The notes beneath the pieces were generated by a model that was not told the DNA's origin, did no database searches, and saw nothing but the letters and a program-made list of their open reading frames with translations. 27,636 nucleotides of DNA from a virus, in the IMG/VR virus record IMGVR_UViG_3300032053_000414, positions 1 through 27,636 of that record; one strand, written 5' to 3'. Below are positions 11,424 to 22,411 of this stretch, in pieces; position 1 is the first letter of the stretch, and each line of letters begins with the position of its first letter. The position numbers and the translations under genes are program-made.

Positions 11424-12133
11424 ATGGAAAAAAAATATAACATAATTTATATAACCACTAATTTAATTACCAATAAACAATACGTAGGAAGTCACTCAAC
11501 CAATAATATTAATGATAAATATTTGGGCAGTGGTAGATACTTATTAAAGGTTATTAAAAAATATAAAATAGAAAATTTTAAAAAAGAAATATTAAAAGAA
11601 TGCAGCAATATATTACAAGCTAGGGAATTTGAAGAATATTATATAGAACTATACAATACTTTATATCCTATGGATATAACATAAGTCCTAAGGGAGGAAT
11701 TGGTTTTAATAATGCAACTTTAGCAGAAAGTACAAAACATAAAATAGGTAGAGCAAATAAAGGAAAAATTCGTACACCCGAAATGAGAAAAAATATGAGT
11801 AACAATCGTAAAGGTAAACGAGTCGGCGAAAAACACCCAATGTTTGGTAAACATCATAAACAAGAATCAATAGATAATATTAGCAAACATCGTAAAGGAA
11901 AACATACAGGAAAGGATCATCATTATTTCGGCAAACATAGAAATGAAATAACGCGACAAAAAATTACAAAAGCATTAACAGGAAGATCTCTTTCTGAAAA
12001 ACATAAAGATAATTTAAAAGAAGCATCCTTAAATATTAAAAAAATAACATGTAATCATTGCAAAAAAGAATTTACTCCATGGGGGTTAAAGAATCATCAA
12101 AATGCTATTCAAAGAAAACAAAATAATAAATAA
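11424..12133 (+). pseudogene. GIY-YIG homing endonuclease broken by a one-base frameshift
   Basis: The first part (11424-11684, 86 residues) is a GIY-YIG domain: NIIYITTN, YVGSHS, KYLGSGRYLLKVIKKY, and an active-site-like E in REFEEYYIELYN. The frame stops after YPMDIT. In the neighbouring frame the sequence continues at once as GYNISPKGGIGFNN, then NUMOD3-like repeats and a final Cys/His motif (CNHCKKEF, then H) through 12133. The junction CCTATGGATAT reads as CCTAATGGATAT with one A restored, which would give YPNGYNIS. A single-base deletion near 11668-11670 thus explains the break. It is either a decayed mobile gene or a sequencing error. Unlike the other three homing endonucleases, it lies on the + strand, between the 10671 gene and the portal. 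Confidence 0.85.
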
Positions 12134-12164: not shown

Positions 12165-13973
12165 ATGAGTGGTTTCACACTACATAATCTCGACAAAGGT
12201 TCTAGATCTTTTTTAGATAATATTCAACGAAATATAAGATACTGGAGCGTTCTTGGAATGCGATGGGATGAAAAGGTAATTAAACAATCTAAAGCAATCG
12301 GTATTGCAGAAATGCAAGAAGATTCAATGTATAGTTTATACGGACAACATCAATTGTATTCAGGAGCAGATATTAATCAAAAAGAATTTATTGCATTTTT
12401 TGATAAAGAATATCCTACAAGAAGAGATTTTCTTCGTAGATTTGCAATGAATGGAGAAATTGAACATGTTATAGAAATTATTGCAGATGAAACAATTATT
12501 CAAGATGATGCAAATTTCTTTGCATATCCTAATACTAAAAAATTAAAATCTGTTCTTAAAGCCGATAGAGCTAAAGAAATTGTAGATGATCTTAATGAAT
12601 CATTTAAAAAAGTATATTATGCGTTTGGTTTTAACACAGGACATGATGGCTGGCATTATGCAAAAAAATTCTTAATTGATGGATTTCTTGCTTTTGAAAT
12701 TATTTATGATGGTGAAGAAACAGAAGATGCAAAAAATGTATTAGGATTTAAAGAACTTGATCCAGTTACTCTTGAACCTGAAATGAGAAAAGATGATGAC
12801 GGTAATGAATTTAGAGTATGGACTCAATTTAGAGGCGATTCAGAAAAGCAAAGAGAATTAGTTGACGGCAATGTAATTTATATTTCTTGGGCCAGAGGAC
12901 AATTCATATCACGTTTATCATATGTTGAAAGACTTGTAAGAGCATTTAATATGCTTCGTACTTTGGAAAATTCACGTATAATATGGAACGTAATAAATTC
13001 ACAATTTCGTATGAAAGTAGTAGTTCCAATTGGAACTCAGTCAGAAGTTAAAGCAAGAACACGTTTATCTGAATTACGTGCTATGTATAAAGAAGATGTT
13101 ACTATTGATTATCATAGTGGCGAAATAACTATGAACGGAACGCCTAATTTTTCATTTGCTAAACAATATATAATTCCTTCTAAAGAAGGCGGTGGACAAG
13201 TTGAAATAGATTCAATTCAACCAGCCGGTTATGATTTATCTGGAACTATGGCTCTTGATTATTTTTGGAAACGATTTATAATTGAAACTAAAGTTCCTAA
13301 AGATAGATTTTCATCAACAGGTGATGAAGGTGGTGGAAGTAATTCTAACTGGAGTACGGGAGGAGAAAGTATTGCTAGAGAAGAAATACGATTCGGATAT
13401 TTTATTAATCGTATTCGTTCTATTCTTCAAGAAATGTTATTAAAACCTACATGGATTCAATTTTGTTTAAAACATCCTGAATTTGCAAAAGATAAAGCAT
13501 TAAAAGGTGCAGTGGGCCTTGAATATGTTGAAGAAAATTTATTTACAGAAACCAAAAAACGAGATATTGCAAGGCAGGGAGCAGGTATAGTTGGTGAACT
13601 TATGAATATAAAACAGCCAGAAGTAAATGGAGAAGGAGAAATATCCTATGATGGTATGTATTTTGATCCTAAGTTTTTAGTTGAAAAATATATGAATTAT
13701 ACAGAAGAAGATCTTAAACTTAATGAAAAATACAAAAAAGAAAGAAAAGAACAACTTACACGTATTTCACAAAATGTTAAACGTATAAATGCAGCAAAAG
13801 GTGAAGAAACTGGAGGTGCAGCCGGTGGTGCTGGTGATATGGCTGGTGGCATGGGCGGTGGAATGGATTTAGGCGGTGGAATGGATCTTGGTGGTGGAGG
13901 CACAACAGAACCTGGAGCCGGTGGTGAAGCCGGAGGAGCTGAAGCTGGCGGAGCAACTAATTTAGGAATATAA
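12165..13973 (+). CDS. 20: gp20-like portal vertex protein
   Basis: The 602-residue protein has the pattern of T4-type gp20 portal proteins, the 12-subunit ring at one head vertex through which DNA is packaged and the tail attached. Supporting stretches are EYPTRRDFLRRFAMNGEIE and IADETIIQDD near the N-terminus and ARGQFISRLSYVERLVRAFN in the middle. The WNVINSQFRMKVVVPIG and YFWKRFIIETKVPKDRFSS segments match the stem/clip regions I recall for the family. T4 gp20 is about 524 residues; the extra here is largely a C-terminal Gly/Ala-rich tail (about 545-602) with GGGMDLGG repeats, probably disordered. The gene follows the broken endonuclease, whose likely target was a site near this essential gene. 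Confidence 0.87.
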   Translation: MSGFTLHNLDKGSRSFLDNIQRNIRYWSVLGMRWDEKVIKQSKAIGIAEMQEDSMYSLYGQHQLYSGADINQKEFIAFFDKEYPTRRDFLRRFAMNGEIEHVIEIIADETIIQDDANFFAYPNTKKLKSVLKADRAKEIVDDLNESFKKVYYAFGFNTGHDGWHYAKKFLIDGFLAFEIIYDGEETEDAKNVLGFKELDPVTLEPEMRKDDDGNEFRVWTQFRGDSEKQRELVDGNVIYISWARGQFISRLSYVERLVRAFNMLRTLENSRIIWNVINSQFRMKVVVPIGTQSEVKARTRLSELRAMYKEDVTIDYHSGEITMNGTPNFSFAKQYIIPSKEGGGQVEIDSIQPAGYDLSGTMALDYFWKRFIIETKVPKDRFSSTGDEGGGSNSNWSTGGESIAREEIRFGYFINRIRSILQEMLLKPTWIQFCLKHPEFAKDKALKGAVGLEYVEENLFTETKKRDIARQGAGIVGELMNIKQPEVNGEGEISYDGMYFDPKFLVEKYMNYTEEDLKLNEKYKKERKEQLTRISQNVKRINAAKGEETGGAAGGAGDMAGGMGGGMDLGGGMDLGGGGTTEPGAGGEAGGAEAGGATNLGI

Positions 13974-14338: not shown

Positions 14339-14368
14339 TATAATATAATTACATAAAATTATATTATA
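14339..14368. repeat. 12-bp perfect AT inverted repeat upstream of the tmRNA
   Basis: TATAATATAATT (14339-14350) and AATTATATTATA (14357-14368) are perfect inverted repeats around ACATAA. No T run follows. It may be a promoter-region operator, a weak hairpin, or an accident of pure A/T composition. It sits in the only spacer of more than 300 bases without a protein gene (14316-14712), which otherwise holds the tmRNA. Confidence 0.4.
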
Positions 14369-14457
14369 TTAGTTCTTTAAGATATTGAGAGTGCCAGCGA
14401 TGGCTAATTATAGAGTAAGTATGCAAGACGAGGATTCGAATTCCTCCACCTCCACAA

Positions 14458-14537
14458 ATCTGTTCAGAGGATGGTAAGGCTTAGTACCTTGAACTAAGCA
14501 TCTGAGGTTTGTAAGATAACGTAACATTACCTATTTT
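14458..14537 (+). other. Intervening segment of the permuted tmRNA precursor
   Basis: About 80 nt separate the acceptor 3' end from the coding-piece 5' end. The segment contains a 7-bp hairpin, GCTTAGT (14479-14485) with ACTAAGC (14493-14499). It should be removed by tRNA-type 5' and 3' processing to give two mature RNA pieces held together by the acceptor stem and P2. It has no anticodon arm or other tRNA feature. Confidence 0.8.
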
Positions 14538-14662
14538 GGGGGTGACTTGGATTTGATTGCATATTAAGGGCAATAGTAATTATCTCAATAACGCAAGTAA
14601 ACGGCGAAAAAGTTACAGAATTGGCAATGGCTGCTTAAGAAGCACTCATTTACAGGAGATTT

Positions 14663-14689
14663 GCCCGTAGCCTAAATACGGGCTTTTTT
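14663..14689 (+). terminator. Terminator after the tmRNA coding piece
   Basis: GCCCGTA (14663-14669) pairs with TACGGGC (14677-14683) and is followed by six T residues. It competes with the possible GGGCAA/TTGCCC long-range helix of the tmRNA. It probably defines the transcript's 3' end. Confidence 0.85.
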
Positions 14690-14712
14690 ATTTAAAATAA
14701 TTAAATACCTAT

Positions 14713-19267: not shown

Positions 19268-20019
19268 ATAAAATTACATGGATAAAAGGATCTTACGGAC
19301 TGCCAGAAGCAGTCCTTAAGATTAAAGTACCCTCAGTATCTACTGTAATTGGTGAAATGCTTGCAGATCCAGAATGGGATGCATTTGTTGCAAGTGTAGG
19401 AAAAATTAAAGCTGATCAAATAATGACTTCCGCTGGTAACCGAGGATCGGCAATGCATTGTTTTATTGAAAATTTTGTAGAAAAATATTCTTCTTCTAAA
19501 GATATTTCAGAAGCATTAAAATATACACAAGTAGAGAGCCCAAAATTATTAGAAATAGATAATATTCCTAAAGATAAAATAGAAGAAGGAAGAAATCTTT
19601 TTTATAAATTTTATTATTCAGAATATTGTGCACAATATTCTGAAATATTAGCAATAGAGATGGGAATATACTCTCCATCTTTATTTTATCGAGGAAAATT
19701 AGATATTCTTTACAAAGATAAATTATTTGGTCTTTCTTTAACCGATTTTAAATCTTCCAACGGCAAAATTAAAAAAGGAAGCACAAAGGAACTAAAATAC
19801 TTTTTACAATTGGGAGCTTATTCAAATTGTATACGAGAAATGTATAAAGAAAAAAATATAGTTTGTAACAGAGCTTCAATTTTATGCGTAGATAAACAAA
19901 ATGATATTTTACAAGAAATTTTATTATCTGGTTTAGAATTAAAAAAATATGAACAACAATTTTGCGAATTGGTTAAAGAATATCATTATAAAAATGGCAA
20001 TGATTATCTAATATTATAA
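19246..20019 (+). CDS. RecB-like PD-(D/E)XK exonuclease
   Basis: The 257-residue protein shows the RecB/Cas4-type nuclease layout: NRGSAMHCFIENF at 65-77 (the conserved G-x-x-H helix), E138, YRGKLDIL with D153, LTDFKSSNGK with D167 and K169 (motif D-x-K), and KYFLQLGAYSN with Q188. These are the metal-binding and QxxxY residues of the family. A role in phage recombination, DNA repair or host-DNA degradation is likely. The N-terminus overlaps the previous gene by 22 bp; the next in-frame Met would remove only part of the overlap and I keep this start. Its end overlaps the convergent HNH gene by 6 bp. Confidence 0.78.
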   Translation: MAFNFDLDKITWIKGSYGLPEAVLKIKVPSVSTVIGEMLADPEWDAFVASVGKIKADQIMTSAGNRGSAMHCFIENFVEKYSSSKDISEALKYTQVESPKLLEIDNIPKDKIEEGRNLFYKFYYSEYCAQYSEILAIEMGIYSPSLFYRGKLDILYKDKLFGLSLTDFKSSNGKIKKGSTKELKYFLQLGAYSNCIREMYKEKNIVCNRASILCVDKQNDILQEILLSGLELKKYEQQFCELVKEYHYKNGNDYLIL

Positions 20020-20763
20020 TTTTTCTCTTTCCCTTCTTTTTTGTTGTGACATACGCATTTTTTCCTTTGTTTGAGATGAATGAGTTGTTCCAGTTTTATA
20101 TAAAACATTATTAATCCCGAGGTGTTTCTTAAATTCTTCATCATGACATTTAATTCCTAAGTGCGATTTACTCATTTTTTCCAATGTTTCTTTAGAAAAA
20201 CAATCTTTTTTACCTTTATTCCATGGAATATGTGTTTTATGTTTTTCGATTGTTTCTTTTGAACATTTTCTATCTTTAGAGTTTTCTCTTATTTTTTGTT
20301 TTAATTCTACTGATTTTTGTAAGCCAACTTCTTCACCGTATAATTCTGAAAATAATTGATCAAAACTTTTTCCTTTTTTACTAGAAGGTCTGCCTTTTCC
20401 TACTTTACTTAATTTTTTACATGTTTCTACTGATACAGGTATTATACTAAGTAATTTTCTTGCGTATTCATAATCTCTGGAAGAAATAATAGTTCCATAT
20501 CTTTTACTAAATGACATTTTATGAAATGCACAAGCTATTTTTCGGTTTTCGTGATAAATATAAGTTAATAGTTTATGACAAACATAATGTTCTTTTGCTG
20601 TTAATAAAACTAAATTTTCTCTCTCATTTGTTCCGTTTAAACATTTTGGAAGTATATGATGATCATCATAATAAATATAATCTTCTTGATTTTTCCTTAA
20701 CTTAACTCTATTTTGAGATTGTGCTTTCTTAATTATAGATTCATAAATATTTTGATGATTCAT
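20014..20763 (-). CDS. HNH homing endonuclease with NUMOD3 repeats (copy 1)
   Basis: The 249-residue product has an HNH-type core at about 33-68 (YYDDHHILPKCLNGTNERENLVLLT followed by AKEHYVCHKLL). Its C-terminal tail has NUMOD3-like motifs (SKETIEKHK, IPWNKGK, SKETLEKMSKSHLG). It is a close paralogue of the endonuclease at 21530-22345, sharing MNHQNIYESII and most of the first 70 residues, while the middles differ. It is inserted against the direction of its neighbours, with its end overlapping the RecB-like gene by 6 bp. It probably spreads itself by cutting a nearby site in related phages that lack it. Confidence 0.88.
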   Translation of the reverse strand: MNHQNIYESIIKKAQSQNRVKLRKNQEDYIYYDDHHILPKCLNGTNERENLVLLTAKEHYVCHKLLTYIYHENRKIACAFHKMSFSKRYGTIISSRDYEYARKLLSIIPVSVETCKKLSKVGKGRPSSKKGKSFDQLFSELYGEEVGLQKSVELKQKIRENSKDRKCSKETIEKHKTHIPWNKGKKDCFSKETLEKMSKSHLGIKCHDEEFKKHLGINNVLYKTGTTHSSQTKEKMRMSQQKRREREKL

Positions 20764-21529: not shown

Positions 21530-22345
21530 TTATAGTTTTCTTTTATTCCACGGTATTCTTTTTTTAAATTTTTCTATTGTTTCAGCCGAATGTTTTCTTC
21601 CAAAAAATGGATTTTTATTTCCCAGTTTAATTTCACTTTGTTTTTTCTTTGTTTCTTCAGAATGTTTTTTTCCTTTTCGGGATTTACTCATTTGTTTTCG
21701 AGTATTTATAGATACTAATCTTCCTAGAAGATATTCATTATCTAAATATTCTTGTATTTCATTTTCTTTAACTAAAAGAGATATATTTAATTTCATGCTA
21801 AACATCCAACAATGTTTATTTTTTTTAATATAATGTTTTCCTTTACGAGATTCACTTTGTTTTCTTATAGTTTCTTGTGAATGTTTTATTCCTTTATGCG
21901 CATTACTCATATTCTTTCTTGCTTCTAGAGAAAAAGATTTATGAGATTTTCTCATTTTTTGTTTTGTTTTTTCTGTTCTTGGCTTTCTTATTTTTTGTTT
22001 TGTTTTTTCTTCCATAGGAATTGAAGATATTAATTTTTTGATAAATGCATAATCTCTAGATGTTAAATTATACAACTTTAATTTTTTTGAATATCTAAAT
22101 CTTTGCAACGCTAATACTAGCCCTCTAATATTTGGATAAATATATGTTAATAATTTATGACATACATAATGTTCTCTTGCAGTCAATAAAACTTTATTAT
22201 ATTCTTCATTACTACCATTCAAACATTTTGGAATTATATGATGATTTTCATAATAAACATAATTTTCTTGATTTTTTCTTAATTTAATTCTATTTTCAGA
22301 TTTAGCTTTCTGAATTATAGATTCATAAATATTTTGATGATTCAT
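21530..22345 (-). CDS. HNH homing endonuclease with NUMOD3 repeats (copy 2)
   Basis: I choose the ATG at 22345, three codons inside the longest frame, because it aligns with the MNHQNIYESII start of copy 1. The 271-residue product has the HNH core YYENHHIIPKCLNGSNEEYNK with AREHYVCHKLL, followed by an unusually long series of NUMOD3 motifs (about 120-270; repeated SEETKKKQSE-type and KQKMRKSHK-type units, and a final IPWNKRKL). An inserted stretch without such motifs lies near 180-215. Strong N-terminal similarity to copy 1 and a divergent tail suggest duplication followed by a change of target specificity. Confidence 0.87.
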   Translation of the reverse strand: MNHQNIYESIIQKAKSENRIKLRKNQENYVYYENHHIIPKCLNGSNEEYNKVLLTAREHYVCHKLLTYIYPNIRGLVLALQRFRYSKKLKLYNLTSRDYAFIKKLISSIPMEEKTKQKIRKPRTEKTKQKMRKSHKSFSLEARKNMSNAHKGIKHSQETIRKQSESRKGKHYIKKNKHCWMFSMKLNISLLVKENEIQEYLDNEYLLGRLVSINTRKQMSKSRKGKKHSEETKKKQSEIKLGNKNPFFGRKHSAETIEKFKKRIPWNKRKL

Positions 22346-22411
22346 AATTTTCATTTTTTAGTTTGATATATAAGTTATATTCGTTAAAACTTTTATAGTT
22401 TTTAATTATAA

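Follow-up and report, generated by a model that had tools for sequence, protein, structure and literature searches.

A circularly permuted tmRNA gene in a large T4-like phage related to the Lak phages and probably infecting Bacteroidota

tmRNA is an RNA that releases stalled ribosomes. The order swap that gives a circularly permuted tmRNA gene was previously known also from some marine phages. Permuted tmRNA has been described from three bacterial lineages (alphaproteobacteria, betaproteobacteria and cyanobacteria), and it has its own Rfam family, RF04321, the seed of which merges sequences from these three lineages exclusively (PMC11915505). For phages, 53 two-piece tmRNAs have been counted, and one has been described in phage Melnitz (PMC9004378). 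In a literature search of partial coverage we found no description of permuted tmRNA in Bacteroidota phages, and tmRNA database tables may list such genes. The new part of the present work is therefore taxonomic, namely a group borne by Bacteroidota phages; phage-borne permuted tmRNA itself is already published. An earlier note on the DNA described here had called a phage copy notable, which holds for its occurrence in Bacteroidota phages and not for carriage by a phage as such (PMC9004378).

We analysed a 27,636-nt stretch of DNA (the window) from IMG/VR record IMGVR_UViG_3300032053_000414, in which a tmRNA locus occupies positions 14383–14689. The permuted model RF04321 (tmRNA_permuted) matched positions 14400–14638 over its whole length with 63.2 bits (E 3.2e-10), passing the gathering cut-off of 47 bits, and ARAGORN independently reported a permuted tmRNA with the tag GEKVTELAMAA. 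By contrast, the standard one-piece model, RF00023, scored 14.3 bits in the window and failed its cut-off of 47. The covariance-model comparison suggested in the earlier note thus favours the permuted form. The note had also proposed the lineage-specific models, and here only the general permuted model passed: alpha_tmRNA (RF01849) scored 16.6 bits against a cut-off of 50, beta_tmRNA (RF01850) 36.6 bits against 84, and cyano_tmRNA (RF01851) 30.8 bits against 70, a cut-off that no control genome reached either. The elements that the note had listed are all present where it placed them, as judged by reading the sequence, by RF04321 and by ARAGORN, and it was correct that the acceptor stem, P2 and T-arm pair only in the permuted order, as every paired element needs that order. 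One-piece genes do occur in Lak phages and in Cellulophaga phage phi38:1; nevertheless, given the model scores and the order that the paired elements require, the reading as a standard one-piece tmRNA mistaken for a permuted one is ruled out by the covariance models and keeps next to no probability. The features of the locus, and the portal gene upstream of it, are as follows.

12165–13973, plus strand: portal protein gene, the syntenic marker upstream of the tmRNA (phrog_213, E 7.9e-50)
14383–14390, plus strand: third-helix strand at the 5′ end of the acceptor piece, TATTGAGA; pairs with 14583–14590
14393–14404, plus strand: acceptor-piece hairpin GCCA GCGA TGGC; stem present in the window
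14418–14426, plus strand: P2 3′ strand, AGTATGCAA; identified by pairing and covariation
14430–14446, plus strand: T-arm GAGGA TTCGAAT TCCTC (stem 14430–14434/14442–14446, loop TTCGAAT); within the RF04321 match
14447–14453, plus strand: acceptor 3′ strand CACCTCC, followed by discriminator A at 14454; holds U70 of G3.U70
14455–14537, plus strand: spacer (intervening sequence) of 83 nt; predicted to be removed
14538–14544, plus strand: acceptor 5′ strand GGGGGTG; RNase P cut expected at 14537/14538
14545–14556, plus strand: D-like region ACTTGGATTTGA, including GGATTTGA at 14549–14556
14557–14565, plus strand: P2 5′ strand, TTGCATATT; 9/9 pairs with 14418–14426, one of them G-U
14583–14590, plus strand: third-helix strand of the coding piece, TCTCAATA; pairs with 14383–14390
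14597–14616, plus strand: resume-codon hairpin GTAA ... TTAC; both sides change in relatives
14603–14638, plus strand: tag reading frame with resume codon GGC at 14603, peptide GEKVTELAMAA and stop TAA (sequence, ARAGORN)
14632–14644, plus strand: stop-codon hairpin TGCTT AAG AAGCA; both sides change in relatives
14663–14689, plus strand: intrinsic terminator-like stem GCCCGTA/TACGGGC with a T run (sequence)

Two small refinements can be made to the earlier note: the spacer is 14455–14537 (about 14458–14537 in the note), and the RNA starts before the acceptor hairpin, at about 14383 or further upstream. The spacer measures 16 to 159 nt in relatives, and its folding in the window is no more stable than that of shuffled sequences (z 0.06). 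CCA is not encoded after the discriminator, where the next bases are CAA. A stem with a T run stands at the terminator position in most members of the clade described below. Near 14365–14372 lies a candidate Bacteroidota-type −7 box, TATATTAG, with one mismatch and without a matching −33 box. A boxA-like reading of GTTCTTTAAGATATTGAG upstream was set aside, its 3′ half being the third-helix strand. Elsewhere in the window, four ORFs (667–1347, 11424–12133, 20014–20763 and 21530–22354) look like homing endonucleases by eye, and one of them has a NUMOD3 domain (Pfam).

We measured covariation in 23 distinct sequences, with partner strands slid by one column as the control. The T-arm and acceptor 3′ strand are encoded upstream of the acceptor 5′ strand, and the stems that they form covary. 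Pairing was seen in 99.4% of cells for the acceptor stem, where 4/7 pairs showed double changes, and in 100% for the T-stem, where 5/5 pairs did; the slid controls gave 48–71% for these two stems and 39 to 71% overall. P2, which is strong in the window, was paired in 73.9% of cells and doubly changed in 9/9 pairs. The G3.U70 pair is the alanine identity pair. It was present in 23/23 distinct sequences, and A73 was found in the window and in all sequence blocks listed. The GGGGGTGA start was rejected as a sign of permutation, since L039 and L171 share it yet are one-piece genes.

A third helix, which links the two pieces through 14383–14390 and 14583–14590, is supported by ten syntenic copies from the clade, with compensatory changes from TTGAGA/TCTCAA to TTAAGA/TCTTAA and TTAAAA/TTTTAA in relatives. 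Strands scored a mean of 15.9 with their own partners and 13.4 with partners from other species, and a fraction of 0.00065 of 20000 permutations reached the own-partner score; because the helix was first spotted by eye and the sequences are related, this figure tests the matching of strands and is not a probability of discovery. Reversed controls on the ten clade sequences showed no effect. The local hairpins also vary in relatives: the acceptor-piece hairpin appears as GCTC/GAGC, TCTC/GAGA, TCTTT/AAAGA and GTTGG/CTAAC, the resume-codon hairpin as ATAAAC/GTTTAT, TTAAAC/GTTTAA and ATAAATG/CATTTAT (for L027 and L032 the automatic search picked a different or shorter stem), and the stop-codon hairpin as AGCAT/ATGCT, TGCGT/ACGCA and AGCTT/AAGTT. 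By eye, host one-piece genes also show palindromes that resemble the resume-codon hairpin.

We next consider the relatives of the window. Querying IMG/VR with the portal gene returned 21 loci. Permuted tmRNA matches were found in 12 of the 16 whole related contigs searched (10 of the 12 above the cut-off), on the same strand as the portal gene and at a distance of about 0.5 to 1.5 kb on its downstream side, as in the window. Three contig pairs have identical tmRNAs, so the clade comprises ten distinct sequences including that of the window. No permuted tmRNA was detected in the other 4 of the 16 contigs, in which the gene may be dispensable, or else may lie beyond the reach of the search or have diverged too far to be recognised by the model. 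The tag frame, ending in a hydrophobic C-terminus and a stop, is intact in all ten members. Besides GEKVTELAMAA, the clade tags are GENSYALQMAA, GENVYDYQMAA, GENVYNEYRIAA, GENSYEYRMAA, GEQFKEYRMAA, GETVYEMAMAA, DANIYEMQMAA and ANTFMNTEMMMAA; tags such as GENSYALQMAA and GENVYDYQMAA begin like those of Bacteroidota hosts (GENNYALAA, GENTYALAA), whereas clade tags end in MAA or IAA and host tags in ALAA. Models, covariation and synteny together uphold the phage-borne circular permutation claimed in the earlier note. The nearest named phages by portal protein are the Prevotella phages Lak, at about 40% identity. Two clade members, L029 and L032, combine an alpha-like T-loop GGCGGAA and D region with TAG with a clade-like tag and locus, a mixture that may have come from recombination.

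A portal search in bacterial genomes, made to find the host, returned no relative; judging from its relatives, the phage probably infects Bacteroidota. Among 395 Bacteroidota genomes (drawn evenly), a single match passed the RF04321 cut-off in a scan with stricter filters that may miss weak matches. This match, in genome G262, adjoins phage-type helicase and DNA polymerase genes (ORFs read by eye) and tRNAs, and the copy was absent from three other genomes of the same genus; the G262 genome additionally has a standard tmRNA (160 bits). The one-piece gene exceeded its cut-off in 11/12 Bacteroidota genomes tested. As sampled here, Bacteroidota bacteria thus look to use one-piece tmRNA. The earlier note's statement that the permuted form is not typical of the Bacteroidota fits the bacteria, in which the sole match is phage-borne, and does not fit their phages, which often carry it.

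Permuted genes were found in other phages as well. A pattern search of IMG/VR gave five further non-beta genes (L197, L198, L202, L203 and L204) and two of the beta type (L196 and L200). Six crAss-like phages exceeded the RF04321 cut-off (cr10_1, cr50_1, cr53_1, cr114_1, cr124_1 and cr130_1) and three more have a permuted gene below it (cr60_1, cr272_1 and cr273_1); ARAGORN called the permuted form in 8/9 of these, cr53_1 being unreported. The cultured Chryseobacterium phage MA9V-3 has a permuted tmRNA (64.7 bits with RF04321), whereas the tmRNA of a Chryseobacterium genome is one-piece (148 bits). The MA9V-3 paper names the SsrA gene and is silent on permutation, and most crAss-like and MA9V-3 records annotate SsrA only. 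The permuted tags of crAss-like phages share a DYT motif, unlike host tags (GNVNNIVDYTNVA, GNFYVTDYTRIAA, GNNFVTDYTQLAVA, GNINVVDYTGLQEAA and others; L211, L212, L215, L216, L217, L207 and L002). In cr114_1 (L217), a tRNA-His gene (1039–1111) lies within the spacer of the permuted tmRNA (971–1289); this spacer would therefore itself yield a tRNA. In the crAss-like phages L207, L214, L216 and L217, RAGATH RNAs are found no more than about 1 kb away from the tmRNA genes or tmRNA-like matches, and a contig with a permuted tmRNA also has a Pistol ribozyme (L203:12718–12780, 58 bits).

Based on the sequence comparisons above, we propose, with a probability of about 0.88, that a large T4-like phage, which is related to Lak and most likely infects Bacteroidota, carries at this locus a functional, circularly permuted ssrA (tmRNA) gene, the product of which would mature in two pieces and rescue ribosomes with host SmpB. 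The structure, covariation, synteny, conservation and tag frame of the locus are observed directly; a precursor, spacer removal, CCA addition, alanine charging and resumption at GGC would follow from established tmRNA biology. A single transcript would start upstream of about 14383 and finish at the terminator (14689). From it, tRNA-processing enzymes would excise the 83-nt spacer, RNase P cutting before 14538 and 3′ trimming acting after 14454, and CCA would be added after 14454. The acceptor piece and the coding piece would be joined by the acceptor stem, P2 and the third helix; AlaRS would charge the RNA via G3.U70, host SmpB would bring it to stalled ribosomes, and translation would resume at GGC 14603 and append GEKVTELAMAA. 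A search of 11 clade contigs (one of 405 kb), MA9V-3 and the tested crAss-like records found no SmpB, which a Bacteroidota control genome does have; host SmpB would therefore be used in what is presumed to be trans-translation during infection. Infection probably yields many truncated mRNAs, which would make a second tmRNA useful, and the likely benefit is the rescue of ribosomes stuck on these broken mRNAs.

A permuted tmRNA could instead mainly compete with or block host trans-translation, like the tagless form of phage DS6A, or change proteolysis through its own tag. The MAA or IAA endings in the window clade, the DYT motif common to crAss-like tags and the report of a phage form that lacks a CDS and inhibits host tmRNA (PMC11915505) are consistent with such a role; however, a pure inhibitor would have no need of the tag frame and stop that are intact in 10/10 clade members. 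We regard this role as unlikely, and the intact resume codon, tag and stop speak for working trans-translation rather than for a tagless inhibitor. That a tmRNA gene was captured and has since decayed into an untranscribed relic seems highly improbable: the four related contigs that have no match speak for it, but the compensatory changes in acceptor stem and T-stem, the conserved tag frames and synteny, and the terminator-like stems all argue against it.

The origin of the permuted form is a separate matter. In one account, which concerns origin alone and would fit this structure and function equally well, it came into this phage pool from alphaproteobacteria, betaproteobacteria or cyanobacteria, or from phages of these groups, and took on Bacteroidota-like features later. 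L029 and L032 point in this direction, with their alpha-like T-loops, RF01849 scores of 49.8 and 46.2 bits, just below the cut-off of 50, and a grouping with alpha sequences (UFBoot 91) in a tree of 48 tRNA-like columns that is mostly unresolved and by itself cannot show origin. Over the same columns, the window is about as close to beta sequences as to host one-piece sequences. Against acquisition, the window scores too low for the alpha, beta and cyano models, whereas genuine alpha and beta phage copies, taken for comparison, clear the cut-offs of their own models (83.8, 159.3 and 142 bits); CCA is encoded in 0/23 genes and in all three alpha/beta phage copies; the tags begin like those of hosts; and the tRNA-like domain of L173 nests among host one-piece tmRNAs in the 48-column tree. 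We therefore consider acquisition doubtful. Model scores, CCA, tags and L173, weighed against L029/L032 and the 48-column distances, make a fourth, Bacteroidota-phage-borne group of permuted tmRNAs, separate from the alpha, beta and cyano families, well supported by sequence, and independent permutation within it likely. With somewhat better than even confidence, we suggest that at least one additional, independent permutation took place within phages, starting from a Bacteroidota one-piece tmRNA, and gave rise to a virus-only fourth lineage while the host phylum kept the one-piece form, with Lak and the window clade as two states in related phages.

Such a group, in phages of a phylum that is one-piece as sampled, would show that permutation can arise or persist in viruses. 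The consistent differences between phage and host tags (MAA in the window clade, DYT in crAss-like phages) make the use of trans-translation in infection testable in a cultured phage. Compared with the RF04321 seed, the window family has the same gene order, acceptor stem, T-arm, P2 and tag region, and differs in its unencoded CCA and its Bacteroidota-like tags. It shares with the two-piece tmRNAs of phage Melnitz and pelagiphage HTVC008M a phage-borne, permuted gene with a full tag; however, the hosts of those phages are SAR11 and OM43 (PMC9004378), and the HTVC008M copy is of the alpha type with an encoded CCA (90.6 bits with RF04321, 83.8 with RF01849). The crAss-like phages and MA9V-3 have the same permuted form, no encoded CCA where measured and tags mostly starting with G, but belong to other phage groups, with the DYT motif in the crAss tags. 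The Prevotella phages Lak-A2 and Lak-B5 are the nearest named phages by portal protein, their tmRNA likewise adjoins the portal gene, and the Lak-A tag ends in RMAA, like some tags of the window clade; by contrast, their tmRNA is one-piece and upstream of the portal gene, and the phage encodes SmpB. The Lak loci (L186:2374–2768 and L187:2200–2609; records W04 and W05) also carry a tRNA called as Pyl (anticodon cta) and the C-terminal domain of a Clp-type ATPase. With one-piece genes in Lak and permuted genes in the window clade, these related phages offer a setting for asking how a tmRNA gene becomes permuted.
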